Shown here: piece by piece, positions 17,645 to 61,798 of the stretch | Position numbering within the stretch: position 1 is the stretch's first letter | How the letters are laid out: every line of letters begins with the position of its first letter | NCBI RefSeq assembly: GCF_963583255.1 | Contig: NC_084817.1 | Coordinates: 8,562,121 to 8,626,120, forward strand | From: Pyrus communis | Taxonomy: Eukaryota; Streptophyta; Magnoliopsida; Rosales; Rosaceae | Reading direction: 5' to 3' | DNA length: 64,000 nucleotides | Translations under genes and position numbers: made by a program | The notes under the pieces: model-generated | The model's database searches: none | The model's input: only the letters and a program-made list of their open reading frames with translations | What the model was told of the DNA's origin: nothing

Positions 17645-18087
17645 TGTTGGAAATTCAAGTCAAAACAAGGTTGCTATTGTTGAAAATCAATGTCAAAGTT
17701 AGGCATGGAAAATTAGGCAATGTTAGGTATGGTTGAATAAAAATTATTAGGTGCAATTAATGTGTTTTGTGTGGTAATAAATAATCTTAGTTTAATCATT
17801 TGGTTTGCTATAAATACCCAAGCTCTCAAGCATTGTAAATCATCCCATCCAAATCCCACTTCCAATTGTGAAGAAGCTTGTAAGCTTTCTTATTCCAATA
17901 GTTTGTAAACCTTTTTCATATATCAAAGTCCAAGTGTTTTGCCAAAGCTTGTTGCTTCCCTCCTTTCTCTATTTCTTTCTTTGTCCAATTTTATTTGAGA
18001 GTGCAAAGTGAAAGAGGTGTGATAGAGTTTGTAAACTTATCACCCACATATTTTGGTATTGAGTTAGTAAACTGTCAAATACCAACA
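17645..18087 (+). repeat. 5' LTR of the Copia element
   Basis: It has TG/CA ends, with a TATA-like box (gctataaatac) at about 17809 and a likely transcript start shortly after it. It ends directly before the primer binding site. Confidence 0.95.
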
Positions 18088-18089
18088 AT

Positions 18090-18102
18090 TGGTATCAGAG
18101 CC
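18090..18102 (+). promoter_or_regulatory. Primer binding site, initiator tRNA-Met type
   Basis: TGGTATCAGAGCC lies two bases after the 5' LTR. It is the standard sequence complementary to the 3' end of plant initiator methionine tRNA. Confidence 0.93.
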
Positions 18103-18131
18103 AGAATACCATTCTGGCAGGTGCAGCAGTT

Positions 18132-19178
18132 ATGGCGTCCAACTTAGTGCAACTCCAAGTTCCCACATTGAAGAAAGAAAATTATGAAAGATGGTGCATC
18201 CAATTCAAAGCATTGTTTGGATCACAGGAGCTATGGGAAGTTGTCAGTAGTGGGTATGTTGTACCCACTGCCGAGCAAGAAGCCGTATATACTACGGATC
18301 AAAGGAACACTCTCAAGGACTTACGAAAGAAGGACCAAAAGGCGCTGTATCTTCTATACCAGGGTTTGGAAGATTCAACGTTCGAGAAGGTTGCAGAAGC
18401 AACAACGAGCAAGCAAGTATGGGATACACTCAGTACAATCTACAAAGGAGTAGATCGAGTCAAGAAAGTGAGGTTACAATCACTTCGAGCAGATTTTGAA
18501 ACTGCTCATATGAATGAAGGGGAGAGCATCTCCGACTATCACTCAAGGCTCATTGCGATAGTAAATCAGATGAGGAGAAATGGCGAGAGACTCGATGAAG
18601 TACGAGTTGTGGAGAAGATACTCCGGTCACTCACATCTAAGTTTGAGCATGTGGTGACTGCCATTGAGGAATCCAAGGATTTGGAGGTGATGAACGCAGA
18701 AGAGCTACTAGGATCCCTCCTAGTTCACGAGCAACGCATTCAGAAGAATGCAAGCCCCACAACGCTAGAGCAAGCTTTGGAGTCAAAGTTGAATATTGAC
18801 AAACCAAATAAAGGTCGTGGGCAGTGGAACTCACGTCGTGGGAGCTCATCCAACCGTAGCCGAGGACGAGCCCGAGGAAGAGGTCGAGGCTATGCACAAA
18901 ATCAATGTCAGTCTCAGGAGTGGAGATCTACTCGAGGAAAGGCGCATATCCAGTGTCACAACTGTAAGCAATATGGACATTATGCCAATGAATGTTCACA
19001 TAAAAATGGTGAGCATGTCAACATGGCAGAATCAAGTGGAAATACTGATGAAGAACTTACAGTCTTACTAGCACACCATGGTATTTGGACTCTGGTGCAA
19101 GCAATCACATGTGTGGAAAGAAGGAGTTTTTTGCCGAACTCAAAAAAAAGGGGCCTATGGATCTGTAAGTCTTGGTGA
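18132..19178 (+). CDS. Copia Gag polyprotein
   Basis: The ATG is 45 bases past the 5' LTR. The protein starts with the typical Copia Gag N-terminus ([18 protein letters not shown]) and continues with the UBN2-type domain (about residues 50-200). An Arg/Gly-rich stretch (residues 225-265) and a CCHC zinc knuckle, [14 protein letters not shown] (around residue 277), follow. These form the virus-like particle and bind RNA. The Gag reading is convincing to about residue 318. The last 30 codons are out of frame relative to the protease, because an indel separates them from the DSGAS active site at 19088. The frame therefore ends early, at 19178. Confidence 0.92.
19088..19168 (+). pseudogene. Copia protease active-site segment in a third frame
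   Basis: The protease motif [10 protein letters not shown] is encoded from 19088 in a frame different from both Gag (before) and Pol (after). This frame stops at TAA 19166-19168. The change to the Pol frame lies around an A8-G4 run at 19142-19153, a likely slippage site. Thus two indels flank the protease and break the single Copia polyprotein. Confidence 0.8.
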
Positions 19179-22131
19179 CTCCTCAAAGTTGCCAGTTGAA
19201 GGCAAAGGGAAGATCAAGATCATCCAGAAGGATGGAAGAGAAGAATACATCTCCGATACCTACTACATACCAGGTATGAAGAGCAACATTCTGAGCATTG
19301 GTCAACTGCTCCAGAAAGGGTACATTATACATATGGAGAACATGCTTCTCACTCTCAGGAATGCAAGGAGAAAGCTTATTGCACGTGTTCGAATGTCAAA
19401 GAACCGGATGTTTCCGTTGAATTTGAACACAAAGATTGGAAGCTGCAACATCGGTGTAATGGAAGATGTGTCATGGAAATGGCATCTTCGATTTGGCCAT
19501 CTTAATTTCAATGGCCTAAAGTTGCTGTTAAGTGGAGGAATGGTTCGTGGTCTACCCCAGATTGAAGCCACACGCCAAGTATGTGAAGGTTGTGTGCTTG
19601 GCAAGCAAGCACGGCTATCGTTCCCTGTTGGTGATACATGGAGAGCAAAGGCACCACTGCAGTTGGTGCACACAGATATATGTGGTCCATTGGATCCCAT
19701 GTCTTATGGAGGTAATAGGTATTTTATTACCTTCATTGATGATTTCAGTAGAAAGACTTGGGTCTATTTTCTCAAGGAGAAGTCAGCTGCCCTAAAAATT
19801 TTCAAGGAGTTCAAGGCACTCACAGAGGCAGAAAGTAACCACAAGCTTGTGGCTGTGAGATCAGATAGAGGTGGAGAGTACACCTCCAATGCTTTCCAAG
19901 CATACTGCAAGGAGCAAGGAATTAGGCATCAACTTACTGCTGCTTATACCCCACAGCAAAATGGGATAGCCGAAAGAAAGAATCGAACCATCCTTGACAT
20001 GACAAGGTCCATGCTTAAGGAGAAGAGTTTGCCAAAAGAGTTATGGGCAGCAGCTGTAGCTTGTTCGATTTATTTGTTGAATCGATGTCCAACAAAGAGT
20101 GTCAAGAGGATGACACCACAAGAGGCTTGGAGTGGATACAAGCCGAATGTTACACACCTAAGAATTTTTGGGTGTGTTGCATATGCTCAAGTTCCAGAAG
20201 CCAAGAGGAGGAAACTTGATGATAGAGGTGAGAAGTGTGTGTTTGTGGGCTATAGTGAAGAGTCCAAGGCATACAAGCTCTACAACCCACTAACTGGCAA
20301 ACTAGTGGTTAGTAGAGATGTCATCTTCAGTGAGGAAGAGACATGGACGTGGAACAACAAAGAAGTCAGTAAAGAGAAGATCGTCTCCACTGATTTTGAA
20401 GAACCAGAAGTTGTACCACCGATTGAGCAACAGCCTGCTCAAACAATCACAATAACTCCAGTGCACAGAATTGCAAGGAGTGGTCCTACATCTAGTGAGG
20501 AAAGCAGCTCCTCAACTCCAGTGAGGTTAAGGAGTCTCACAGAGATTTATGGACAAGAAGAAGAAGAAGAAACCAACCTTTTCTGCTTGTATGCAGACCA
20601 CGAGCCTTTCTCATTCAATGAAGCTGTGGAAGAAGATTGTTGGAAGAAAGCCATGGAAGAAGAGATCCATGCCATCGAGAAGAATGACACTTGGGAGCTG
20701 ACAAAGCTCCCACCAAATCAGAAGGCTATTGGTGTCAAGTGGGTTTACAAGATCAAACGCACTGCAGATGGGAGTGTGGATCGATACAAATCAAGGCTTG
20801 TAGCAAAGGGCTACAAACAGAAGTATGGAGTGGACTATGATGAAGTCTATGCTCCAGTTGCGAGACTTGACACGGTAAGATTGCTAATCTCTCTTGCCGC
20901 ACATCATAAATGGAAAATTTATCAACTAGATGTCAAGTCAGCCTTCCTTAATGGAGTACTTGAGGAAGAAGTGTACGTGGAACAACCGGAAGGCTTCCAA
21001 GTACAAGGAGAAGAAGATAAGGTGTATCGTTTGAAGAAGGCTTTGTACGGCCTCAAGCAAGCACCACGAGCTTGGAACTCAAGGATCGACAACTACCTTC
21101 ACCAAAATGGATTTCAGAAATGTCCATACGAGCATTCAGTTTACATGAAGAATGGTGAAAAATGGGAGTTCTTAATTATTTGTCTCTATGTAGATGATTT
21201 ATTGTTTACAGGAAACAATGAGGCAATGTTCCATGAGTTCAAGCAATCCATGTTCAGTGAATTCGAGATGACTGACAATGGATTAATGTCATACTTTCTT
21301 GGCATAGAAGTGAAGCAAGAAAGTGATGGTATCTACATCTCTCAACAAAGGTACATGAGAGACATATTGAAGAAGTTCAATATGGACAAGTGCAACACTG
21401 TCAATACCCCAGTCGCAACTGGATTGAAGCTGTCCAAAGGAGGAGAGGGTGAGTTTGTAAACTCAACAGTGTACAAAAGCCTCGTTGGAAGCCTAAGGTA
21501 CCTTACAATCACAAGACCTGATATAGTTTATGGTGTTGGACTCGTGAGTCGATACATGGAAACACCAAGGGAGTCTCATTGGCTGGCCGCCAAGAGAATT
21601 TTGAGGTACATAAGAGGTACTCTAAACTATGGTCTATTTTATAATTTTGGTGAAGATGCAAAATTATTTGGTTATTCAGATAGTGATTGGGGAGGTGACC
21701 AAGATGAAAGGAAAAGCACAACTGGCTATGTGTTTTTTCTAGGATCAACAGCTTTCTCATGGACTTCAAAGAAGCAATCAATTGTTGCTTTGTCATCATG
21801 TGAAGCCGAGTATGTTGCTGTAGCCTCAACCGTGTGTGAGGCAATTTGGTTAAGAAATCTGTTGAAGTCAGTGTGTCATCCACAAGTGGAATCGACTGTG
21901 ATTCACGTAGATAACGTGTCTGCAATCAAACTTGCAAAGAATCCTGTTCAACATGGAAGGAGCAAGCACATTGATACCAGGTTCCATTTTCTAAGGGACC
22001 ATGTGAAGCAAAAGACAATTGAACTTGTCTACTGTCACACCAAGGAACAAGTGGCAGACATCTTCACAAAGCCATTGCCAATTGAAACATTCCGGCTACT
22101 GCGTGAAATGCTAGGAATGAAGGCGTTTTGA
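19150..22131 (+). CDS. Copia Pol: integrase, reverse transcriptase, RNase H
   Basis: The frame is open without stops to 22131. In order it has a pre-integrase zinc finger (H-x4-H...CEGCVLGKQ), the integrase core with the D-D-E residues ([24 protein letters not shown]), a [13 protein letters not shown] C-terminal segment, reverse transcriptase ([31 protein letters not shown] and the catalytic YVDD) and RNase H ([25 protein letters not shown] and the C-terminal [14 protein letters not shown]). These enzymes copy the element RNA into DNA and insert it. All catalytic motifs seen are intact. Only the link to Gag and protease is broken. An upstream ATG at 19078 in this frame is unlikely to be the natural start. 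Confidence 0.93.
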
Positions 22132-34888: not shown

Positions 34889-37600
34889 TAGGCAATCATG
34901 CTACGTACCATCCAACAAATGCTTTTGAGAGAGGCTCAACGCCGTCTCAACCCTCCGATGATGGAAGTGGTGAAAAAGGAGATAATCAAACTCCTTGATT
35001 GTGGAGTGATTTACCCCATCTCCGATAGCCGTTGGGTTTCACCTATCCAATGTGTTCCCAAGAAATCTGGAGTGACGGTTGTGGAGAATGCGGAGAATGA
35101 GCTTGTGCCCACCTGAATCCAAACCGGTTGGCGTGTATGCATTGATTATAGGAAGATAAACGCCACCACAAGGAAGGACCACTTCCCATTGCCGTTCCTA
35201 GATCAAATGCTTGAGAGGTTAGTGGGTCATTCATTTTATTGTTTTCTTGATGGATATTCTGGTTATAATGAAATTGTTATTGCCCCGGATGATCAAGAAA
35301 AGACCACTTTTACTTGTCCCTTTGGAACGTTTGCATATTGACGCATGCCATTCGGTTTGTGCAATGCTCCTGCCACGTTTCAAAGGTGTGTGGTTAGCAT
35401 ATTTTCTGATTATGTTGAGAGGATTATTGAGATATTCATGGATGACTTTAGTGTGTTTGGTGATTCCTTTGATCATTGTTTGGCGAATCTCACTTTAATC
35501 TTGAAACGTTGTGTTGAAACAAACCTTGTGTTAAATTGGGAGAAATGCCACTTTATGGTTAAACAAGGTATTGTTTTGGGTCATATAATATCTGAAAAAG
35601 TAATTGAAGTTGATAAGTCTAAAATAGATCTTGTACGCTACTTACCCTCTCCTACTTCGGTGAGAGAGGTTCGTTCTTTTCTTGGTCATGCAGGATTCTA
35701 TCGACGATTTATCAAGGACTTTTCCAAGATTGCACAACCCCTATGCCGTCTCCTTCAAAAGGAAGTATCTTTCGAGTTCAACGAGGCGTGTGAGAAAGCA
35801 TTCAACCATCTCAATGACCTCCTCACCACGGCACCAATCATCACTCCACCAGATTGGTCCATTCCCTTTGAATTGATGTGTGATGCATCGGATTATGCCC
35901 TTGGAGCTGTTTTGGGCCAAAGGAAAAACAAACAGCCACATGTTATTTATTATGCTTCACGCACTTTAAATGATGCTCAATTGAATTATTCTACAACCGA
36001 AAAAGAACTTTTGGCGGTTGTATTTGCATTAGATAAGTTTAGATCATATCTAATTGGTACTAAAGTAATTGTTTTCACTGACCATGCAGCCTTGAAGTAT
36101 CTTCTCACCAAAAAGGAGGCCAAACCAAGGCTCATTCATTGGATGCTCCTACTTCAAGAATTCGACATTGAAATTAGGGACAAGAAGGGATGTGAAAACG
36201 TGGTGGCTGACCACCTAAGTCGAATGGTGCGTGAAGAAGAGGCCCTTCCCATTTCAGAAACGTTTCCGGATGAACAACTTCTGTCCGTTGAGGTAAGTAC
36301 CCCTTGGTATGCCGATTTGGTTAATTTTTTGGTGTCTAAGCAAGTTCCTAACACCTTAAGCAAGGCCCAACGTGATAAACTAAAAAAGGATGCACGTTTT
36401 TATGTTTGGGACGACCCTTATTTGTGGAAAATCTGCCCGGATCAGATTGTGCGTCGTTGTGTTCATGAATTTGAGTTTAATTCCATTTTGAGTTTTTGCC
36501 ATACATATGCATGTGGTGGACACTTTGGCACACAACGCACATCGTGTAAGGTTCTTGAAAGTGGTTTTTATTGGCCTACATTGTTTAGAGATGCTAGGGC
36601 TTTTTGCTTAACATGTGATCGTTGTCAAAGGACAGGAAGTTTAGGACAAAGAGACCAAATGCCACAAACCCCAATCCTTGTTGTTGAAATCTTTGATGTT
36701 TGGGGTATTGATTTTATGGGTCTTTTCCCTATCTCTTTTGGTTTTACTTACATATTACTTGCAGTTGATTATGTGTCAAAGTGGGTGGAAGCTAAAGCCA
36801 CCCGAACTAACGATAGAGTTGTTGCAGATTTTGTCAAATCTAACATTTTCTCTAGATTTGGGATGCCTAGAGTGCTAATAAGCGATGGTGGGTCTCATTT
36901 TTGCAACCGCACCATTGAGGCGTTGCTCAAGAAGTACAACGTGATGCATAAGGTTTCCACACCTTATCATCCCCAAACCAGTGGTCAATTCGAAGTTTCA
37001 AATCGAGAAATAAAGCAAATCTTGGAAAAGACCGTTGGGCCAAATAGAAAAGATTGGAGCTCGCGTTTGGAGGATGCATTGTGGGCGTATCGAACGGCTT
37101 ACAAAACGCCCATTGGTATGTCCCCATTTCGGCTAGTCTATGGCAAGCCATGCCATTTACCCATGGAGCTTGAACACAAGGCACATTGGGCGTTCAAGAT
37201 CTTCAATATGGATGTGGACACGGCTGGAACCCATCGGAAGCTACAATTGAATGAGCTCGAGGAGATTAGGCATGAGGCTTATGAGAATGCCCGGATTTAC
37301 AAAGAGAAGACCAAGGCAATCCATGACAAGATGATTAGAGGCAAAACCTTCTCAATTGGGCAGAAAGTGTTGTTATTTAATTCCCGTCTTCGGTTATTCC
37401 CTGGTAAGTTACGTTCTAAGTGGGTTGGTCCATTTGTTATCACTAATGTTTTTGTGCATGGTGCAGTCCAAATACAAAGTTTGAAAACTGGACAAGAATT
37501 CAAGGTGAATGGCCATAGGTTGAAACCCTACTATGAGAACTTTGTTGAGCATGTTGTGGAGGAGATCCCATTGCATGCCGTGAGCTCCAATGGGGAATGA
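34889..37600 (+). pseudogene. Gypsy Pol: reverse transcriptase, RNase H, integrase
   Basis: Reverse transcriptase starts inside the thumb/finger region (LLREAQRRLNPPM) and continues with VVSPIQ-type [56 protein letters not shown] and the catalytic FMDD. Two in-frame TGA codons (35114-35116 and 35339-35341) stand where relatives have Arg, as expected from CGA to TGA change. From 35345 the frame is open for 751 codons through RNase H ([14 protein letters not shown]), the HHCC zinc finger (H-x..-H..CLTCDRCQ) and the integrase core ([30 protein letters not shown]). The Glu of the D-D-E set is retained. It is dead only upstream of the active site. Confidence 0.9.
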
Positions 37601-47027: not shown

Positions 47028-47803
47028 GGATGGGGGTGGTTGATATAGATGCCTATGTTTTAAAAATTTGAGATTAAACATTTATGCCTTTTAGACCGGG
47101 GGGGGGGGGGGTTGATATAGATGCCTATGTTTTAAAAATTTGAGATTAAACATTTATGCCTTTTAGACGTTTGATTAAATATCTTCCTACAATTTAAGTG
47201 CCAAATGGATTAGAAGTAGCCTTTTTTATAATTTAAATTACCCAACTTGCCATTATATAAATATACCTTTTAATTCCTAGATAATACATCAAAACTCCTA
47301 AAATCTTGTAGATAAATATTGTAGAATTTAATTCCAATAAAAAGTCTTTCAAAATACCCATGAATGCAGCTTGCCATTATATTTAATATACCTTTTAATT
47401 TTCTTAGATAATATCTCAAAACTCCTAAAATCTTGTAGGTAAATATTGTTGTATTCAATTTTAATAAAAAGTCTTTCAAATTACACATGAAACGTAGATT
47501 TCTTCTTGGTACATATTTGATATCTTACTTAATATATCTTCTTGGTACATATTTGGTATGTTTGTTTTCTTTTTTGTATGTATTTGGTAAGTTTATATTT
47601 ATTTAAAAAAAAACATATTTGGTACATATATTTCCTCTTGATTAAACATATATTTCTCCTTGGTACACATTTGGTACGTTACTTTATATATCTTCTTGGT
47701 ATGTATTTGGTACGTTCAGATCTTTTTTTGTATGTATTTGGTACATTTATATATTATTTTGGTACGTTTATATTTATTTAAAAAAACATATTTGGTACGT
47801 TAC
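46664..47803. other. Simple and tandem repeats left of the Tat element
   Basis: Poly-A (46951-46989), poly-T and poly-G runs (47005-47035) come first. Next are two copies of a ~70-bp unit (gttgatatagatgcctatgt...; 47038 and 47111) and two copies of a ~125-bp unit (cttgccattatat...; 47246 and 47370). Last are many 'cttggtacatatttggta' repeats (47505-47800). The last group continues after the Tat element at 61701, which shows the element was inserted in it. There are no genes. Confidence 0.7.
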
Positions 47804-48983
47804 TGTTTGGGCCCAAAATAATATCGTTGGGTCGAGTGTAGGTTTGTGCTTGGCCCAAAGCCGTGTCAAAAGTACTATGGGCTATCTGGTGATTCCGGGC
47901 CATTCAGCAGGGATGGTCGAGTCTTATCACAAGAAGGAGTAGTTCAGATAAGCAAAGGGGTCGAGGAAGTCCTAGTGCAATTAGGATTATCGACCAACAA
48001 TGAATAAAACCCCAAAAAGGGGTGAGTTTAAAGTCCTAATGGGAGTAGGGTTGTTCGAAGCAAAGTTGGAACAAAACAAGAAATCCCAATCCAAATATGA
48101 GTTTAATTCGATCTCAAGAAGGAGTTGGTGCTATAAATACAAGACATCATGCAACAATTCAGGACCTTTAATTCAACACAGAATTGCCCTGCGCAAAACC
48201 TTTCAAACATCTTGAGATTTTGTATTTTCTTTTTCCCGTTGACACACCTTTAGTTTGGATAAACAACACTGTGAAGGCAACCGGCGAACACCTTCAGTTT
48301 GGATAAACAGTATTGTTGCCGTAGAATCAGATGATCGAGGAGCACCTTCAGTTTGGATAAACAGCACTGTTGCCGTAGAATCAGTCGACCGAGGAGCACC
48401 TTCAGTTTGGATAAACAACATTGCATCGAGGCCGACTGGTTACCTATCCAAGTCTCGGTCGAGAAGGGTTTTCGAATCCTTTTTGGCAGAGGTCATCTTA
48501 TTAGCCTTAAGGTGTTACGAGTTATGACATTCGGCGAACTGGACGCCGAGTGATTTTATGATTGGATACTTACAAGTGAGTTTTAGAGTTCGGCATTCTG
48601 ACGGCCGAACCACATTCACCATCAAGACATACATCACCTTTGAATACTTGTGTCCGTATAGTCTGGTGTCGATTCGACGTGCTTATACTCTTACGAATAT
48701 AATCACTGTGACCAAGTTGGGCGCTGATGATTTGTGAACTTTGCAGAACTAGCAGCCTTGTCTTCAGGCTCGAGAATCCAAAGGCCGAGATTTGTTCCTT
48801 CCTCGACCGTAGTCGCAAGATAAAGAAGTCAGCAACGCGCTCAACGCAACATCAACAAATTTTACTCCTCGGCCGAGCTAGGCCGACGAGTTGGCACGCC
48901 CCGCATTCAACCGAATGACGTAGTTAACTTATAAATTACTTGGCCTGCGCGCCACATAGGCTTTGTAATTTTTAGGGTCAACA
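47804..48983 (+). repeat. 5' LTR of the Tat element
   Basis: 1180 bp, starting TGTTTGGG and ending GGTCAACA. A TATA-like box (gctataaatac) is at about 48131. After it, 'cagtttggataaacagcact' units occur four to five times (48250-48420). One unit of about 57 bases is extra relative to the 3' LTR. Confidence 0.93.
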
Positions 48984-49027: not shown

Positions 49028-51046
49028 ATGACCATTGAGACACGGTCTGTAAAGAAGAAAACAATCATGGGAAAGTCAACAATTGACTTATCAGTGCAAG
49101 GCCCTGGGCAAGATTTGTCTGAGGCACAAAATCCGATCATTGTTGCGCTACCCGAGGCTACAAGTGCAACACGCCGAGATAAGGAAATTTGTCTCGGCGG
49201 ACAGCCTCGCAATCCATATATTCCCAACCAAATAGCAGGCGTTTTCGTTGAAGGAATAATGGAAGATTGTGACGAAGATGGTGGGGAGAGTTCTGATCCG
49301 CCAACTAGATCGTTTCTTCGAAGACGACTTGATAACAATATCGACAGGTCGAGTAGTTAATTGGCCAGAAATTGAATGATTTACTAGATGTAATACGAAG
49401 CAACAGTGATACACAAACCAGGATGCTTGAACTGTTGGTCAGTAAAGCCTTCAGAGATGGCCATGTCGGCCAACCCCGGCAGCCTTCTTTTACGAATGTT
49501 GCATTGCAAGCCGAGAAATGATCCGCTCGACTACAACCAATTGACTTAGAGAAAATAGACAGATCAAGCAATAGATCTGACGGACCTGACCAGGGAGTAG
49601 AAGCAGCATCTGTCAATATGACTGAGGTCCAAATAATGATCAACTCGGCCCTAAAAAAAGGGCCGAAGTTCCCAAAATTCATCCACCCGTACGCAACTTA
49701 TGTAGAAAGGTTCGAATACCCTAGGGGCTTCAAGGTCCCCGATTTCAGTCTGTTCGCCGGAGAATCGTCCTTATCCTCGTTAGAACATATGGCTCGATTT
49801 ACGGCGCAATGTGGGGACGTCAATAGTGACTTCCATAAACTACGGCTATTCAACTTTTCACTAACAGGGTCAGCTTTCGCTTGGTACATTAATCTCCCAC
49901 CAAACTCCGTCTAGAGTTGGGAGGAATTGGTCGAGAAATTCCATGAACAATTCTATCGACCAGGGATGGAAACGTTCGTTTCATCGTTGGCTAGGATGGC
50001 TCAAGAGTCCGACGAATCCCCAATGGAATACTTAACAAGGTTCAAGTAGGCCAAGAATTGGTGCCGAGTACCTCTTCCTGAAGTTGAATTTGTTAGAATT
50101 TCCCTAACGGCCTGGACGTGGAATACAAAAAGAAATTCCTGGGGGCAAATATTTGAGATATGTACAAACTTGCTCAACACATTGAGTAGTATGATTATTT
50201 GCTCCGAGAGGAAAAAATATTGAAGTCCCCATCCCAGGGAACGCTATACACGAATCCCACGGTTAGCTACGCATTGGCCGAAAGCGAGGACCCCCAGTAT
50301 GCCAGTGTGGACGCGGCTGAAATAGTGATAGATAAACCATACGTTTGCAAGGCATTAGCTCAAGTAAGTCCCAAAGACGCCAAAACCCACTCGGCCACCG
50401 AGGAGATGAGTAAAACATCGAAAGTTTACACTTTCGATATCACCAAAGCCGATGCAATTTTCGACCAGTTGTTGCTAGCAAAGATCATCAAACTTCGGCC
50501 ATGACACAACATCCCTAAGGTCGAAGAATTGAAGGGAAAAACATATTGCAAGTACCATACTTCAAACAAGCATGCTACTAATAATTGCGTTGTGTTCCGT
50601 GATGCGATTCAAAATTGGATCCAGAAGGGTAAGCTAAAATTCCCGGAGAAACAGATGGCGGTCGATGTCAATCCCTTCCCCTCAACAACAATTGGTATGA
50701 TGGATGCTCATATCCCTAAAAACAAAGGAAAAGGAAAGGCCGAATACGTCTCGGTGCAGCAGGTCCGTAAGCAGAATGGTCAACCAAGACTGAAGATTGA
50801 TTTATTTTCAAATGTGCCATCCACGGAACCTTCATGGCCGCCCATCGTTGAATCCATGTCAGGTTCTAGTTCCGAAGAAACCGACGAATCAATGGTTTTT
50901 TGCAACCACTGTAAAACACAAATTGAACCTAAAAAGAGGGCATCTCCGGCACTAATTTTAGGCCCACCATTTGCGACCGCTACAAAACCACCAAGGGAAC
51001 TCGGTGCCGGCCCACGACGCCAAGTGTTTGAGAGACTCGGTCCATA
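49028..51046 (+). pseudogene. Tat Gag, interrupted
   Basis: Gag pieces lie in consecutive frames. They are an N-terminal part (49028-49360), the retrotransposon gag domain at 49618-50170 (KLRLFNFSLTGSAFAWYINLPP, then WEELVEKFHEQFY, then ESPMEYLTRF) and a Cys/His segment at about 50540-50650 (YCKYH...NNCVVFRDAIQNWI) typical of Tat nucleocapsid. In-frame stops are at 49912-49914 (TAG for Trp) and 50047-50049 (TAG for Gln), and there are frame changes. The product would form the RNA-binding particle. Confidence 0.85.
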
Positions 51047-52172
51047 AGTACAAGCAAAAGACCCAGCCCCAGTCAGATGACGTCTTGACTTTGATGCACC
51101 ATTTTATAATGAAGATTATTACTCGCGCAACTCAAGCAGTTCAGGTTCGTCAGTCGATCGAAAAACCTTTAAACCGCTTAGGCCACGAGACCAACGTTGG
51201 TACAGTTACAATTATCTAACTGGCCTATATACGACGTTATCTAAGTCTCAAAAATGTCGTCGCCAGCGGATAGATTGCATGGCTCGACGACAAGAAACGC
51301 AGGCCACTTCGACTACCCGGTGGCAGCCAAAAGAGGCAGTAGGAAGCTGTGACGATTGACTGACCCCGACTATCATGATCGAATTATTTGAGGGGAAAAC
51401 GGCAGCTGCTCGCGACTTTAAGACCACCATTGAAGAGTCCGAGAAATGCATCAAGCTTCTTCTTCGGCCTAGGTAGATGAGAGCACGTCTTAAGCATTTT
51501 AGACAAGAGGCCGAAAGGAAACTTTCCCCGCTACCACCGCCGGAACCGTTAGTCAAAGTATGATGCAATTTGCACCCCCCATTCCTTGGTGAATCCTTGG
51601 AGTACATTCGGGAATTTCATAAGAAATATTCTGCCAATGACTTATACGGACTACCCAAGGCATGTTAGGAAGCCCTCGACCTAGCACTAACTTGCCCTGA
51701 TGCCAAGCAAATTATCCAAAAAACTTCCGATCCAGCAATGAAAGCTAGGTTCCAGCATATACGCGAAGCTCGGGTCCTCGGCTTTGAGGTCGACCAATAC
51801 ACAGATATAGACACCGCCGAATTACCCTTTTCACATGAAGACCTTCAGCATTTGCGATATCATTTCGAAGTTTTCTCAGCTGTATCTCTTTTCGGCTTTA
51901 CGACCGATGAGGAAAATTGTGTGGCACGTTTAGACGTATACCTGGACACAAGGAACGTCTGCATTGCCTATGAAGAATGAGCCTGTAAAGTACTACAAGA
52001 ACGAAACCAATCTTCGGCAGTAAACGCGCTCGAGGAAGATAACCATAATAGGATAGATTCAGTCCGTACGCCTCAGGAGCAGGTTCATACCGAAGCGCTA
52101 AATAGTCCAATTGAAGATGTTTCAACGACTGATACTACGTCTACTACTCTGGAAGACGATGACCAAGACCCG

Positions 52173-52985
52173 ATGGGTCCTTCGGTCCTCGAGCATATGG
52201 AGATTAGTATGGTCCATGTCTTACCGGCTGAGTTCCAACCAAGCACCTATCAGTCAATTTTTTTGGATGGGGACATAGTTGCCGAAGAAGCAACACAAGT
52301 GGATTTCGTCGCTACTGATGAAGATGAGGAAGTCAGTAAAGGCGACAACCTTAAGGCACCCCTGGCCGAATTATTTCCCCGTTCCCCTTCTGTTAATCTC
52401 CAACATGTAAAGCCGTTATACGTCACGGCTCATATTGAAGGATATCCCATTTCCAAGGTGTTTGTTGACTGTGGAGCCACAGTCAACATCATGCTGATTT
52501 TCGTCATGAATGCATTACGCCGTTCTAATGACGAGTTTATCCCATCAGGGATAACGATGAACAGCTTCATCGGCGACAAGTCTCAAACCAAAGGAGTGCT
52601 TCCGTTAGAAGTTAGCGTTGCCGGTCGTAACCACATGACGACATTCTTTATAATTAATTCAAAGACTGACTATAATACATTGCTCGGTTGCGGTTGGATC
52701 CATCAAACAAGTTGCATTCCTTCATCACTATACCAAGTTCTCATTTTTTGGGACCGCAAATCGGTCGTAGTGCACCCAGCCGATAATCAGCCATTTAAGA
52801 CCAACATGATTCAAGCTCGCTATTATGACAATCACGTCAGCTATATCACCCTCCAAGGTTTTAATGAGGATAGACGGCCGACCAGAATTTCGGTTCAGAA
52901 AGCTATCGAGGTAAGCGTTGAGACTGTACAACAGGATTCGACGAGACTCGGCTTAGCAAATCTAATTACCAATGCCGATGATTGA
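52173..52985 (+). pseudogene. Tat aspartic protease region
   Basis: The 270-codon open frame contains LYVTAHIEGYPISKVFVDCGATVNIM, where Asp and Gly of the active-site D-x-G-A are kept with Cys between them, then TFFIINSKTDYNTLLGCGWIH, the conserved second half of this retropepsin group. It releases Gag and Pol proteins in active relatives. Sequence between Gag and this frame (51047-52172) is open only in pieces. Confidence 0.8.
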
Positions 52986-55900
52986 CATCGCCAAACAAGA
53001 AAGGCGTTGGGCTGCGGTTTCGTTGACCATGGAACGTCTGCTGGCCCATTGCTACGCCATTGCAAAGCAACCGCATTCAGGTATAAACTTAATCGAATTT
53101 TTGGCTGAAGCAGATAGCAGCCCCGTTCTATCGTTCGACAAAGTTCAGGCCGCACCGGTCAAACTCGAAGATAATCGGCCCCAGGTTAAGGACCTATTGG
53201 AAGAAATCAATGTTGGCACAGCCGATAAGCCTCGACCATTGTTTATCAGTGCGTTGTTACCACTTTCTATGAAGGTCGAGCTTTGTAAATTGCTTCATGA
53301 ATTTAAAGATTGTTTTGCGTGGAATTATCATGAGATATCAGGCCTTGACCGAAACCTCGTCGAACATGAGTTACGCATCAAAGAAGGGTGTAAGCATTTC
53401 CGACAACCCCCACACCGGTTCTCGACAGAAGTACAACTCGGCATAAAGGACGAATTAGTTCGGCTTCTGAAAGCCGGGTTTATTCAGACCACTCGGTATG
53501 TCGAATGGTTGGCCAATATGGTCCCGGTGTTAAAGAAAAGTGGAGCCCTCCGCATTTGCATCGATTTCCGTAACTTAAATCTGGCCACTCCCAAAAATGA
53601 ACACACAATGCCAATCTCAGATTTACTAATTGATGCCGCAGCCAATCATGAAATACTATCATTCATGGACGGCCATGCCGATTACAACCATATCTTTATC
53701 GCTGAGGTTGACGTCCACAAGATCGCCTTCCGTTGCCCGGGGGCATTCTGTACCTACGAATGGGTTGTCATGCCATTCGGCTTTAAGAACGCCGGCGCCA
53801 CATACTAGCGATCCATGAATACGATATTCCATGACTTGATCGGTACGGTCGTAGAAGTTTATATCAATGATGTGGTGGTGAAATCGAAAAGCCGTCGAAC
53901 ACACTTGGATGATCTTTGGCAAGCATTCCTCCGCATGCGACAGCATAATCTCAAAATGAACCCGGCCAAATGCACCTTCGGTGTATCGGCCGGTAAATTT
54001 TTAGGTTTTTTGGTGCACCATCGCGGCATTGAAGTCAATGAAAATAAAGCTCGCGCAATCATTAGCACTCCACCCCCGACAACCAAGAAGTAACTCCAGT
54101 CATTGCTCAAGAAGATAAATTTTCTCCGCCATTTCATCGCTAATTCGACAGGCAAAATGAAAGCATTCTCTACGCTCCTCAAACTTAAGGATTCCGACAA
54201 GTTTGAGTGGCGTGAAGAACACCAAATGGCTTTTACGAAAATCAAGGTTTTCCTTTCCATGCCACCAGTACTAGTTCCACCTTGTCGCGGTAAACCTCTC
54301 AAACTGTACATTTCGGCAGCCGCTAAATCCATTGGTTGCCTCCTCGCGCAAGATAACGATGTTGGGCGTGAACAAGCTATCTTTTATCTCAGTCGCAATA
54401 TGAATTCACCGGAGCTCAATTATTCACCCGTCGAAAAACTGTGCTTAGCTCTGTTTTTTATCGCATCAAAACTTCGGCACTACATGCTCCCATCAGTTAC
54501 GCAGGTCATTGCCCAAACAGATGTTATTCGTTACATGCTCACTCGGCTTATCGTCAAAAGCCGAATTGGGAAATGGACAATGGCTTTATCAGAGTTCAGT
54601 TTGCAGTACGTACCCCAAAAGGCTGTCAAAGGCCAAGCTTTCGTCGATTTTTTGGCCCAATACACTTTTCTTTATGGCTTTGGGGGCAGGGACGTCGACA
54701 TCGGCTTAATCACAACACCCGACAACCACTGGACGATGCATTTTGATGGTTCCAGCACCTCGACCTCGGCTGGTGTTGGTATTGTCATTCAATCGCCCGA
54801 CCACTATCGCTGGTATTTTTCTCTCAAGTTAGATTTCGGCTGTACAAATAATCAAGCTAAGTATGAAGCTCTTATCATTGGCCTTCATGTCCTGCATGAT
54901 TTAAGAGCAACCCGTGTTCTCATCCTTGGTGATTCTGAACTGGTGATTAACCAACTCAACGGCGTTTTTCGTTGCATGAGTTGTACTCTGGCGCCCTATC
55001 ACATAGTCGTCACCTATTTGGCCGAGTCATTTGAATGGATTACATTTGAGCACATTTCGCGTATTCGAAGCACTGACGCTGACGAACTCTCCCAAATTGC
55101 CTCTAAAGCACAACTCACAGGGGGTAAGCTAAGCCGGGTAACACCCACAGTCTTGCGATTATACCCAGCCTTGGTCAATCAGCAAATTCTCCAGCGCAAT
55201 CACGTGATACGCACGAGGGTGATGTCGTTACCATCGTTACTAGAGTGGGGAGACCCCGTAGAAGTATGTATCGTCGAGACACTACCAGGCGATTGGAGAA
55301 AGACGATTCTACGATATCTCGATAACCCCAACAGGAAACACGACCGAAGAACGAGGGTCCACGCCACGAATTATGTGTCATACCAAAATGAATTATACCG
55401 AAATGATGGGGATAGGTTATTTTACTGTGCCTCGGCCTATAGAAGGTTGTCCAAGCAATGGCCGAAGTACATGAAGGAATTTGTGGAGCTCAGCAATCAA
55501 GACGTAAAATGCGCTGGTTGCTTCAACGACACGGCTACTTCTGGCCAAGTATATTAAAGGATTGCATCGAATACGCATGAGGATGCATACCGTGCTAGAT
55601 TCATGGACCAGTGCAGAGAGCCTCAGCTGAATTACTTCACTCAATTACTAAACCATAGTCGTTCAGGGGATGGGCAATTGACGTAATCAGCAAAATCACA
55701 CCATCTTCTGGAGCGGCAAAACACGCATGGATAATAGTAGCAACCGATTACTTCACTAAGTGGGTTGAGGCAAAATCATACGTCGAATTAACAGCTAAAG
55801 AAGTTTACAGTTTTGTAAAGGAAAATATTATGACCAGATTCGGCGTGCCAGAAACGATCATAACCGACAATGGCACAATCTTCACAGCCGCCAGGTTTAG

Positions 55901-56543
55901 GGAATACATGGCAAGTCTGAATATCCGACTTGAGCAGTTTACGCCGTATTACCCACAAACGAATAGGCAGGCCGAAGCAAGCAATAAGGTATTAATCGAC
56001 ATTCTTGAAAAAATGGTAAGAAAGAGGCTTGGGATGTGGCATTTAAAGTTAAATGAAGCACTATGGGCCAATCGAATTTCACCCCGGTCCGCCATCGGAA
56101 CAACTCCTCCTTACGCGTTAACTTACAGACACGACGCTATGTTACTAGTCGAGCTAAGTATAAACTCATTATGAGTGATCGAGCAGAGTAGTTTGCTTAG
56201 TGCCAAATATAGTCAAGCTATGTGACAAGAGTTAGAAGACTTAGAAGAAATTCGAATCGACGCGTGTAATTTATTAATAGTAAAGAAGAAAATTGCCGAG
56301 CGAGCTTATAATCAACGCGTCAGACAAAAAACGTTCGGCGAAGGAGAATTGGTTTGGCAAACTGTGTTGCCCGTAGGAATTAAAGACCCCAGGTTCGGCA
56401 AATTGTCACCGAATTGGGAAGGACCATTCATCGTCCACAAGGTTCTCGGCAAAGGGGCATATCATCTTAGAGACCGGACCGGGTTAATTCATAAATTACT
56501 AATCAATGGGAAGTTCTTAAAGAAGTATTATCCGGTCACATAG
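52986..56543 (+). pseudogene. Tat Pol: RT, RNase H, second RNase H, integrase
   Basis: Reverse transcriptase covers about 53340-54090 (RQPPHRF, ALRICIDFRNLN, VVMPFGFKNAGATY). The catalytic box at 53860-53871 reads YIND instead of YIDD, so the first catalytic Asp of the pair is Asn. RNase H lies at about 54190-54660 (FYLSRNMNSPELNYSPVEK). A second, archaeal-type RNase H is at 54730-55100 (MHFDGSSTSTSAGVGIV, YEALIIGL, LGDSELVI). Integrase has its first Asp near 55675 (WAIDVI), then ITDNGTIF and QAEASNK. A C-terminal segment ends at 56543. In-frame stops are at 53806-53808 and 54091-54093, and the integrase zinc finger is frameshifted around 55440-55560. This copy cannot make active polymerase. 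Confidence 0.9.
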
Positions 56544-56631: not shown

Positions 56632-59600
56632 TTAAGGTGAGGAGGGAAGGAGAGTTTCGAGAACAGCCTTCAATTCTAACCACCTCACTTCACCCATCGT
56701 GACCTCGGCCTGCCGATTCCTCTTATCCATCTTCAGCCGCTCGACATGCCGCATATTAGCCGCATATTCGGTCAGGCAGGATTTACCACTCGACTCGAAA
56801 TCTCTTGCTAGCTCGGAAGTAACTGCTGACCTCCGGTTTTGAAGTTCCGTAATTTGACTGTCAAGGTCGACCCGCGCTTCTTTTTTCGTCTTCAGCATAT
56901 CGATCCGTGGATGCAAAGCTTCTTGAACGACCATCATAACTTTGAAGTCATCTTCGGCCCAGAGAGCTATCTCGAAAATACCGAAATACTCTGGAGTTCG
57001 TTCCAGAGCAGAAGAAGCTCGAGTAATAGCTTCATTGCTTAATTGACCATCAACCGCAAGATCGTTCAGATATGTCCCTACGGAGTCGAGGCCCTGGCAC
57101 TCAAGGATTTGTGACGCCGAAAGAGATAGCAATTCCTACAGCTTGATGAGGGCATTTGGTTCGGTCGTTGACGAGAAACTTTTTGTTGCGGTCGCTGAAC
57201 AGCCAGCCGCCCCCAAGGTAGTCACAATCAAGGCGTCGAGCTCGACCTCCCATGAAGGCTGCATAGGAAGAAAAATGTCAGCAAAAGGAAAGTTATATGG
57301 AATGCATAACAGAGGGAATGTGTTTCTAGACCTGCCGGGAGGAGACTTCAGCCATGTTCTCTGGTTCATTGCTCGAACTTAGAGAACTTAATGGCCGAGC
57401 CCAGTGCCTAAGACCGTTTCTCAATTCACGTGACCGATAGAGGTTATCTACATTTGATGGCCACTGAGGTGGCCAGGAAATATAGATAACACTCTTCGGC
57501 GCATAAAATTGTCGGTGAAATGAACGTTCGGGTACCTGACATTTAATATTTTCCTGAGTTCAGATGCGTCATAATAAAATTAATAAAGAAAGAAAAGTGA
57601 GCCTTACAAAAATCGAGGTAACTTCTTGTGAAAGAATGTTGAGGTCTTCATCTTGTGGATGGAACGGTGTTTCGGCCGTCACCTCAGGCTCAACTAGGGG
57701 TCTCTTCCCACGATCGGTCGTAGGAGGATCCGGTTGGACGGCTGCCTCGACCACATGGGGAGGATTGACGGAAGAAAGGTTGGCTGGTTGAGGGCGATGC
57801 TCCAGCAGAGTTTCGTCACCCTAGTCGCTCTCATCGTCCTGAAATAAAAAGCTGTTACAACTTGAAAATTGGATAAACGAAGATCATTAGCAATGGAATC
57901 ATACCTCTTGCGGAATGATCGTCGGTCATTAGATGGGGGATGCCTCGACGAGGCGGCAGTCTCCTCCAAAGCAAGCGCAACGATCAGCTCCGAAGCCACA
58001 GCTGGAGTAGTAGCCGGTTCGGCCATAACCTCAGTTATCGGTACAACCGAGTGATGAGATGGCAATAACAGTTGGTCCGTCGAGGCCTGGACAACCGGGA
58101 CGGGAGGAGAGACGATAAGAGCGGTCGTTCCCGTGGTCTGGCTAGAGATGACGTGAATCTCCCATTCCCCTTTTTTCGCCAATTTCTTGACACGTTTCTA
58201 AGGTCGAGGAGCGTCATCTCCCGTCTCGGCGTCCTGATGGGGTCGCTTGGTCGGCGGGGTTCGCCCAGTAGTTTTAATTTTCTTTGAGGAGGGGACCAAT
58301 TTTTTCTTGGCCACCGCCGCGGCGACCACGTCCTCTCGTTTCATCACACAACCACCTGAGATAGCAAAGTCGAATCAGTAACATTGAGCAAGTAGTTAAA
58401 GTACAAAGGAAGAAACGATAATATACCTTGGGTCGTTTCTTTGGATTGGGCTGCAGGAGCTTGTTTGGGTCGATCGTCGAAGATTTTATTAACCACGTCT
58501 TTGGCCGAGACGCTAAATAGGTCACATGTGTACTCTTCCCACCAGTCCCCAAAGGTGTCAGTACCCAAAGATTCAAGAATGGTCGGTCGGAGTCAAAAAT
58601 TTTTACACTTATCCTGAAACTCTTGTTCTGTCGTTTTACACTCCCTCTCGAAGGAACTAGAAATGCGTTTTCGACTTAAGAGGGAGCGAGAAACGAGCAG
58701 GGATACTGGGCAACCTTAGAGGTAGCCGAGCTACCGGGCAACGAAATGGGGATGATAGACTTCCCAACTGGCTCGCACGAGTGTCGCAATCGAGGGGAAG
58801 GTTGCGTGTCAATACGAACGACCCTCAGTATTGACGAAGATCAACATCTTCAGTCTTATCCCATGCTGTTTTCGGAAGCCTGATCGAGACAGGGTATTCC
58901 TAACGCCAACATAGTAAGAATTCGTCGTCAGAAAGGACGTCCAAGCTGAAGAAGTGTTTAAGGACTTCATCAGCCCGGTAAGGAGGCGCTGGTCGAGAGG
59001 CCAATTGAGGACTAAGCGCTGCGGTAGGTTGGAAAACGAGGACTTCGAGCCGAAGTGTGGAAAAATAAACCTGTAGCCAGATTTGGAATACCCAGAGGGG
59101 TCTGTTCTGGTGCAGGTCGATTTTGTTGATGGTTGTTTCGGCCAAACAACGGAAGAGATTGGCGAGGATGGTCGGACTGAGCGCCGATGAGTGACCCCTA
59201 GCCAAGGCTTGAACTACCGGCATATTCTCGACCAAGCATTTATTCGACTTGGTACAATAGATAAACTTGTTGTACCAGTAGAATAGAAAGGCTTCGTGCT
59301 CGCCTTTCTTCAAGCTCGCCTGCCCACGACCAGCAAAGTGGAGGATGAGGTTGTTGTAGTTGAAAAAGTTCTTATGCAATTTTTGAACTTCTTCTTTCGA
59401 GGGTTCCTGACCTCCTCGGCTGAGTGTCTCGACGGCTCGATTGTCGAACAGTGCTTTTAGGTCGAGGTTCGACGGGCACCCAGAAAAAGCAACATCTATT
59501 GGGAGACCAGATGGGGAAGTCCCAAGGATAGTTGAAATATCAAGGACAGTTGGGCTGAGAGGGCCGAAAGGAAGGATCATGGTGTTGGTGGCCGAACACC

Positions 59601-60000
59601 ACAAACTCAGAGCCGCTATGAGCAGCTATTTATCCATAGTGATCTCCATGGTTGAGATCTTGAAGGCGTCGTAAATGCTAAGAACTTCCCATTCTTTGCC
59701 GAAGAATGTTTCCATTTGTTTGACCCAGGCTGCCTAGGCTGCAGTGTTCGAGGGCCAAGCTCTTTGGGGCCGTGCCAAGCACCATTTCGACCAGTCAAAC
59801 CCTTGCAGCAAGGGTGTTACGCACTGTTCCTTGAGGAGGTTGGTGATGCACGATAGCACTGCATCTTTAAAAAGTGGCCCCAGAATTTTATGAGTGGTGT
59901 TTAGGTCGCCCTCAAAGCGTAGCGTTTTGATAGCGCTCCGGTCGATGAAATCTTTGCATTTGTTGCACTCGTCGGAGAGCTTTGAGAGGAAGGAAGCCAT
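56632..60000 (-). pseudogene. Antisense multi-exon gene with plant mobile domain, carried by the Tat element
   Basis: On the minus strand an ATG at 60000 opens a long exon to 58427. It encodes a plant mobile domain (PMD) protein: METFFGKEWEVLSIYDA, STMEITM, LWCSATNTMILPFGPLSPTVLDIS, HEAFLFYWYNKFIYC and WEVYHPHFVA. Further exons, judged by GT/AG borders, are about 58354-57905 (Lys-rich, possible nuclear signal), 57838-57608, about 57390-57332 and 57258-56632 (a Gln/Glu/Lys-rich likely coiled coil with stop at 56632). Stops interrupt it (for example 59734-59736, 59626-59628 and 58900-58902), mostly TAG for Gln. PMD proteins in plants include MAIN-type silencing factors. Antisense extra frames with this domain have been described in Tat retrotransposons. 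The splice borders are mine and are untested. The host role is unknown. Confidence 0.75.
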
Positions 60001-60564
60001 TGGTGAGGATTCAAAGGTTCACGTAGGTTTAAAAGGGGTTTGTGAGAGATGAGCTTGAGATCTTCTGGTTTGAGAAAGCAAGAATAGCTAAAGGAAGTTT
60101 CAAAGTGTCTGAAGGCGTGGAATGCAAATGAAAGAAATTTAGGTATTTATAGGCATTTCAGAAGGAAGATCAAACGTTTGGTATTCGGAAGCGCTAGATT
60201 TTTGAATTTGAGGGAAAATCAACTGAGAAATGGCCAATCATTTCGGATATCTCGGGAATCTTCAAGGATATGATCAAGGTTTTTGGGGATTTGGGACACA
60301 CGATTGCGTGCGGCAGCGGTTTTAATGCATTAATGAGGAAGAGACGTTTCGACAGGCGCACGCTTTCGAGGGCCATGATTGAGAGTTGCTAGGTTTATCG
60401 GAGAATCGACACGTGGCAAGACATCAGGAGTAACGAAGATCGTGCAATCATATTCCATAAATGCGCATGGTAATGGTTATCGAGAACAGTTAAGTCTAAA
60501 AGCAAAAGATGTTTTCGCTTCTTCAAGGTCAAGATCCGACCAAAGGTTGGCAGTCGACAACCTC

Positions 60565-60580: not shown

Positions 60581-61695
60581 TGTTTGGGCCCAAAATAATA
60601 TCGTTGGGCCGAGTGTAGGTTTGTGCTCGGCCCAAAGCCGTGTCAAAAGTACTATGGGCTGTCTGGTGATTTCAGGCCATTCAGCAGGGATAGTGGAGTC
60701 CTATCACAAGAAGAAGTAGTTCAGATAAGCAAAGGGGTCGAGGAAGTCCTAGTGCAATAAGGATTCTCGACCAACAATAAATAAAGCCCCAAAAAGGGGT
60801 GAGTTCAAAGTTCTAATGGGAGTACGGTTGTTCGAAAATCCCAATCTAGATATGAGTTTAATTCAATCTCAAGAAGGAGTTGGTGCTATAAATACAAGAC
60901 ATCATGCAACAATTCAGGACCTTCAATTCAACACACAATTGCCCTGCACAAAACCTCTCAAACATCTTGAGATTTTTTATTTTCTTTTTCCCGCCGACAC
61001 ATCTTCAGTTTGGATAAATAACACTATGAAGGCAACCGGCGAACACCTTTAGTTTGGATAAACAACACTGTTACCGTAGAATCAGCCGACCAAGGAGCAC
61101 CTTCAGTTTGGATAAACAGCACTGCGTCGAGGCCGACTGGTTACCTATCCAAGTCTCGGTCGAGAAGGGTTTTCGAATCCTTTTTGGTAGAGGTCATCTT
61201 ATTAGCCTTCTCGACGAAGTAAGGTGTTATGAGTTACAACATTCGGCGTACTGGACGCTGAGTGATTTTATGATTGGATACTCACAAGTGAGTTTCAGAG
61301 TTCGGCATTCTAATGGCCGAACCACATTTACCATCAAGACATACATCACCTTTGAATACTTGTGTCCGTATAGTCTGGTGTCGATTCGACGTGCTTATAC
61401 TCTGATGAATATAATCACTGTGATCGAGTCAGGCGCCGACGATTTGTGAACTTCGCAGAACTAGCAGCCTTGTCTTCAGGCTCGATAATCCAAAGGCCGA
61501 GATTTGTTCCTTCCTCGGCCGCAGTTGTAAGATAAAGAAGTCAGCAACGCGCTCAACGCAACATCAACAAATTTTACTCCTCGGCTGAGCTCGGCTGACG
61601 AGTTGGCATGCCTCGCATTCAACCGAAGGACATAGTTAGCTTATTAGTTACTCAGTCTGCGCGCCACGTAGGCTTTGTAATTTTTAGGGTCAACA
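60581..61695 (+). repeat. 3' LTR of the Tat element
   Basis: 1115 bp, shorter than the 5' LTR. It lacks about 20 bases near 60835 and one 'cagtttggataaacag' unit. Over the first ~150 bases I count roughly eight substitutions relative to the 5' LTR, nearly all transitions. Confidence 0.93.
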
Positions 61696-61798
61696 GTTAC
61701 TTTATATATCTTCTTGGTACGTATTCGGTACGTTTAAATATATTATCTGAATGTAGCAGCCTCAAGCTAAAGAATACATCTAATTATCTCACATGATA

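Follow-up and report, generated by a model that had tools for sequence, protein, structure and literature searches.

The pear genome (Pyrus communis) harbours a family of LTR retrotransposons in which purifying selection has kept intact a gene for a plant mobile domain protein that runs antisense to gag-pol. Judged from sequence comparisons, this antisense gene is very probably real, selected, and intron-containing. In the window, i.e. the whole analysed stretch of 64,000 nucleotides, it occupies positions 60000-56632 of the minus strand, between the integrase and the 3' LTR, and is composed of five exons and four GT-AG introns.

Organization of the element and its antisense gene

The host element is complete at its ends. 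The 5' LTR (47804-48983, plus strand) pairs with the 3' LTR (60581-61695, plus strand), and the target duplication GTTAC is present just before the former (47799-47803) and just after the latter (61696-61700). Alignment of the two LTRs over 1081 sites showed 77 differences (65 transitions and 12 transversions; K2P 0.076), so the insertion is old. The gag-pol region (49522-56543, plus strand), delimited by open frames and Pfam matches, is split into several frames and displays the order protease-RT-RNase H-second RNase H-integrase. The Pfam domains detected were RVT_1 (below the cut-off), RT_RNaseH, RVT_3, and rve. Namely, the frame 54094-55557 contains RT_RNaseH (66-168) followed by RVT_3 (217-334), with rve next at 55659. 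The available text of PMC6317226 gives, as the criterion for Tat elements (Ogre/Retand), an additional RNase H that comes after the first one and before integrase. By this dual RNase H criterion, the element fits the Ogre/Retand branch of Tat-type Ty3/Gypsy elements, as the earlier note had assumed. Also, the window contains a Copia-type gag with a 1019-aa open pol frame that is little broken (18063-22131, plus strand), a second Ty3/Gypsy pol piece with 752 aa open (35342-37600, plus strand), and repeated TTC/TCT-rich stretches with Phe/Ser-rich frames, which are seemingly duplicated (about 6050-8000, plus strand).

Exon 1 of the antisense gene (60000-58427; minus strand, like all the following features; 1574 nt) includes the ATG and the plant mobile domain (PMD) and is broken in the window copy. 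It is followed by intron 1 (58356-58426; 71 nt), the Lys/Arg-rich exon 2 (58355-57905; 451 nt), intron 2 (57839-57904; 66 nt), exon 3 (57838-57608; 231 nt), intron 3 (57536-57607; 72 nt), exon 4 (57535-57332; 204 nt), intron 4 (57259-57331; 73 nt), and exon 5 (57258-56632; 627 nt). Exon 4 is an in-frame cassette whose 5' border varies between the models of different species, while exon 5 encodes a Glu/Lys/Ala-rich C-terminal part and has TAA at its end. An antisense, intron-containing PMD gene had been proposed for this region in the earlier note, which placed its ends correctly (start codon at 60000, stop codon at 56632); all four introns are of the GT-AG type.

The open piece 58900-59625 matched PF10536, the PMD family, with an E value of 3.7e-24 and 86 bits versus a cut-off of 34.9, and in the relative P0001 the entire domain was matched (1-346 of 347). 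Lack of a significant PMD match, named beforehand as grounds for abandoning the idea, was thus not what we found. The long PMD exon was confirmed in its length and domain; it does not form an open frame in the window copy. Over its full length, this copy of the gene is interrupted by nine in-frame stops and by two runs of gaps that break the frame, so it cannot yield the full protein and is dead.

Of the Lys-rich and coiled-coil parts suggested earlier, the former corresponds to the Lys/Arg-rich stretch. It includes KRVKKLAKKG in exon 2, which we take to resemble a nuclear localisation signal. The coiled coil was not borne out in window exon 5: its 3.5-residue hydrophobic moment (heptad test) was not significant, with 229 of 500 shuffles being as high. 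The same test was only suggestive for the reference copy (24/500) and for the apple protein P0074 (57/500). Neither five antisense pieces of the window nor five relatives, all scanned at E values up to 0.1, matched Transposase_28 (PF04195). An AlphaFold2 model of P0001, built with 17 sequences, was discarded (mean pLDDT 38, pTM 0.29).

Family copies, splice borders, and selection

The genome (487 Mb in 29 contigs; the window lies on contig C15) was searched with the PMD piece. At least 150 relatives were revealed on contigs C1-C17, since all of the best 150 among 809 first-look candidates that were scored gave a match; a stop inside the PMD piece, counted by eye, occurred in 44 of these 150. 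Leaving the window itself aside, twenty copies with their flanks were hand-picked from the 29 top matches (two of the nine omitted ones had a stop), and four further copies, shorter and more distant, were fetched beside them. The order of LTR-like sequence, gene, and integrase was as in the window in all 20 copies, with the integrase on the opposite strand; the integrase match was full-length in 19 of them and partial with a stop in one. The earlier note had made its claim depend on other family members keeping the frame open. All five exons were free of stops and frame-breaking gaps in 9 of the 20 copies, a fraction biased upward because these copies were hand-picked from the best matches. 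Among the four more distant copies, two had no stop and none had frame-breaking gaps. The exons of the reference row total 3024 nt without an internal stop. Additionally, about a dozen PMD places on contigs C3, C7, C8, C11, C13, C14, C15, and C16 share an identical score of 436.3 bits and a 602-aa open frame; they probably reflect a recent burst within a single subfamily.

The exon borders are well preserved. Across 21 rows (the window and the 20 copies), 162 of 168 border dinucleotides were GT or AG; the six exceptions comprise three acceptors with AA and three deleted borders. All eight borders were intact in each of the four more distant copies. The ATG and the end stop were kept in 21/21 rows. 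The introns as wholes share 58-68% identity between the window and the reference copy. They were retained in every subfamily looked at, in line with the earlier claim that they survive in the family. P0080 was considered as an intron-less copy with exons 1 and 2 seemingly joined and was rejected, as its residues enter intron 1 and then the middle of exon 2; this is an internal deletion and therefore no proof of splicing.

Upstream of the gene, TATAAA is located 151-157 nt before the ATG in 21/21 rows. In the window, the corresponding element TATAAATA (60144-60151, minus strand) is a candidate for the core promoter from which the antisense gene would be transcribed. A promoter near the 3' LTR had been postulated, and a conserved candidate TATA box is indeed near it; it is not part of the LTR itself but sits about 430 bp from the LTR edge, in the interior of the element.

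The calculation of dN/dS among family copies, suggested in the earlier note as a check, gave low values in the coding frame. These values were obtained by NG86 from pairs that share branches and are, therefore, non-independent. The window versus the 20 copies yielded 0.131-0.180 at a dS of 1.1-1.4, which is near saturation. For 28 pairs of eight non-window copies, dN/dS was 0.105-0.237 (dS 0.05-0.61), while the two shifted frames of the same pairs gave 1.06-2.59. The codon-position patterns, too, match the coding frame rather than the shifted ones. Within the gene, and for the same 28 pairs, exon 1 gave 0.073-0.197, with the PMD exon mostly at 0.07-0.12; exon 2 had the weakest constraint of the exons (0.33-1.27), and exon 4 reached 1.09 in one pair. 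The integrase core showed 0.070-0.109 (about 0.08) when the window was compared with the 20 copies, and 0.036-0.154 in four pairs of copies. Given the similar ranges, the constraint on the PMD exon is near that on the integrase. A chance frame or a constraint imposed by an overlapping frame was considered and judged unlikely: the longest stop-free stretch of the sense strand over the gene region was 167-280 codons in the 20 copies.

Relatives in Rosaceae and PMD type

Protein database searches, in which the best 7999 and 7998 candidates were scored, gave relatives from Pyrus, Malus, and Rosa among the named matches; all of these models are predicted genes. One copy had a PMD exon 93% identical to a Pyrus x bretschneideri protein. 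Exons 1-3 were joined at the same borders in all five predicted pear models that hold these exons (P0001, P0003, P0031, P0034, and P0035), and six of seven predicted apple models (1005-1027 aa) contain parts of all five exons. Two Rosa proteins matched in exon 1 only, with 33-34% identity. The PMD piece of the window shares 85% identity with pear copies and 66-68% with apple proteins. The reverse holds for exon 5 of the window, with 57-59% identity to the apple proteins versus 48-51% to the pear sequences. This suggests, from identity values, that the last exon was exchanged between element lineages and that the element is a mosaic.

When the same genome was searched with PF10536, 119 matches were obtained among 970 candidates (117 scored). 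Seventeen places or pieces scored 140-378 bits, and those of the element type mostly 114-138. A PMD tree was made of 11 element PMDs, 10 other pear places, and two Rosa proteins, and holds no named PMD-A, MAIN, or MAIL sequences. The element PMDs formed one clade (support 100), which was joined by Rosa (89) and then by locus L063 (99), and was separated from two groups of this genome that look genic. The earlier designation of the PMD as MAIN-type was not upheld, since the element PMDs fall outside the host genic groups, with the reservation that the ten places are not proven to include MAIN orthologues. Host MAIN/MAIL proteins (PMD-C) have the PMD in common with the element proteins; the identity of element PMDs to the ten compared pear places, which may or may not belong to MAIN/MAIL, is 21-29%. 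Being Gypsy-encoded and apart from the two genic-looking groups, the element PMDs fit the PMD-A idea proposed by Ikeda et al. 2017 (PMC5418596), in a tree that contains no PMD-A reference.

Locus L063 (C8:12672970-12674160) is a PMD place with an open frame. Its position in the tree falls between the element PMDs and the genic groups, and it, too, may be borne by an element. On contig C14, a cluster at 18.63-18.70 Mb holds several non-element PMD genes, some of which are broken.

Competing explanations, proposed mechanism, and significance

Genic-type PMD genes occur in the same genome, and MULE transposons are described as having captured host PMD genes in the available text of PMC5418596. 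The antisense gene could, accordingly, be thought of as a recently captured MAIN/MAIL-type host gene that is passively carried. We reject this explanation on the tree and the divergence and regard it as extremely unlikely: the element PMDs form a separate clade with Rosa and L063 at the low identities to other pear places given above, and the window differs from the other copies by a dS above 1, yet the structure is common to both. A second question concerns the main product, which might be made of exon 1 (PMD) and parts of exons 2, 3, and 5, with exon 4 being optional or mis-set. Skipping of this exon, which may be optional, preserves the frame (204 nt). Pear models P0001 and P0003 read into intron 3 and then stop, and the other three of the five skip exon 4. 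Seven of eight apple models examined start exon 4 about 21 codons later, and one skips it. At the place of this apple acceptor, the window has AG, while 19 of 20 pear copies have CG or TG and one is deleted there; the 5' border of exon 4 is thus provisional across species. Against a product of this kind, acceptor 3 is AG in 21/21 rows and in 4/4 further copies, and no other exon is as similar at the nucleotide level between the window and the reference copy as exon 4 (171/204 identical). We consider it somewhat unlikely.

For the preferred reading, a real and selected antisense gene, the following mechanism is proposed. The element family would bear an RNA-polymerase-II-type gene opposite to gag-pol, with an internal TATA promoter, five exons, and four short introns. 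Such a gene would need its own promoter, for which the TATA box is a candidate. As the introns are present in the genomic RNA as reverse complements, they would stay there and be recopied at each retrotransposition, and splicing would be confined to the antisense transcript. The predicted product is a PMD protein of about 1000 residues, and its basic stretch could bring it into the nucleus. There it would most likely act in trans, as an accessory factor that regulates the cycle of its own element. That it acts on chromatin or transcription of the element is a tentative proposal.

Alternatively, the protein could counter host silencing, e.g. by competing with host MAIN/MAIL or by loosening heterochromatin. 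The selection on the gene and the roles of MAIN and MAIL1 in silencing speak for this idea, which has already been published for element PMDs in general (PMC5418596, PMC8616336, in the portions available); the position of the PMD outside the MAIN type in our tree speaks against it, and it appears rather unlikely. The antisense transcript itself might pair with the genomic RNA and set the copy number via small RNAs, the protein being secondary. The accessible text of PMC7264820 suggests such a role for antisense ORFs found in other plant elements. However, codon-level selection holds only in the right frame, so the protein counts, and a primarily RNA-based role is highly doubtful. Splicing might also mark the antisense mRNA as self, with the introns shielding this transcript from the silencing of the intronless genomic RNA. 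This is improbable; if it were true, a PMD regulator with an independently evolved, HBZ-like layout would be produced although the remainder of the element is under repression.

Several parts of this picture are in print: Gypsy elements with a PMD, Tat elements with antisense ORFs, and the conjecture of counter-silencing. According to the available portions of PMC5418596, PMC6317226, and PMC9289625, the PMD is the most frequent extra domain, occurring in 57% of Ogre elements, and PMD-A1 and A2 are exclusively Gypsy-encoded. The PMD-carrying Gypsy elements of Ikeda 2017, Neumann 2019, and Alvarado-Marchena 2022 likewise have PF10536 in an extra ORF; introns in the PMD gene, its orientation, and a selection test, all given here for the pear family, go unmentioned in the accessible parts of these papers. 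The antisense ORFs of Retand, Grande, and RIRE2 are likewise conserved and located between pol and the 3' LTR, opposite to gag-pol (PMC11963269, PMC7264820). In the text available from these sources, they are described as ORFs and carry Transposase_28 or other domains, not a PMD, and gene23 of Grande has an upstream antisense promoter. HBZ of HTLV-1 is also encoded antisense in an LTR element, near the 3' LTR, and has a spliced form; in contrast to the internal TATA box and PMD of the pear gene, the accessible text describes a TATA-less 3' LTR promoter and a 206-aa bZIP protein (PMC3504254), and the likeness is an analogy only. A look at spliced antisense transcripts is called for in the available part of a 2020 review (Vicient and Casacuberta, PMC7264820). 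In a search of open papers, which is weak evidence of absence, no description of introns came up for an antisense PMD gene or for any other antisense gene of a plant LTR element.

Because every copy of a retrotransposon passes through RNA, intron loss is expected in its genes. The presence of four introns across diverged copies, together with a constraint near that of integrase, would mean that the antisense placement lets the element own a spliced gene. Genes of this kind are filed as ordinary host proteins in annotations, e.g. as 'proline-rich protein 12-like' or 'F-box protein', which calls for caution. The pear gene would be a plant counterpart of retroviral HBZ in layout, and the family would offer a clean system for addressing the role of element-encoded PMD proteins, which has been left open in the literature.
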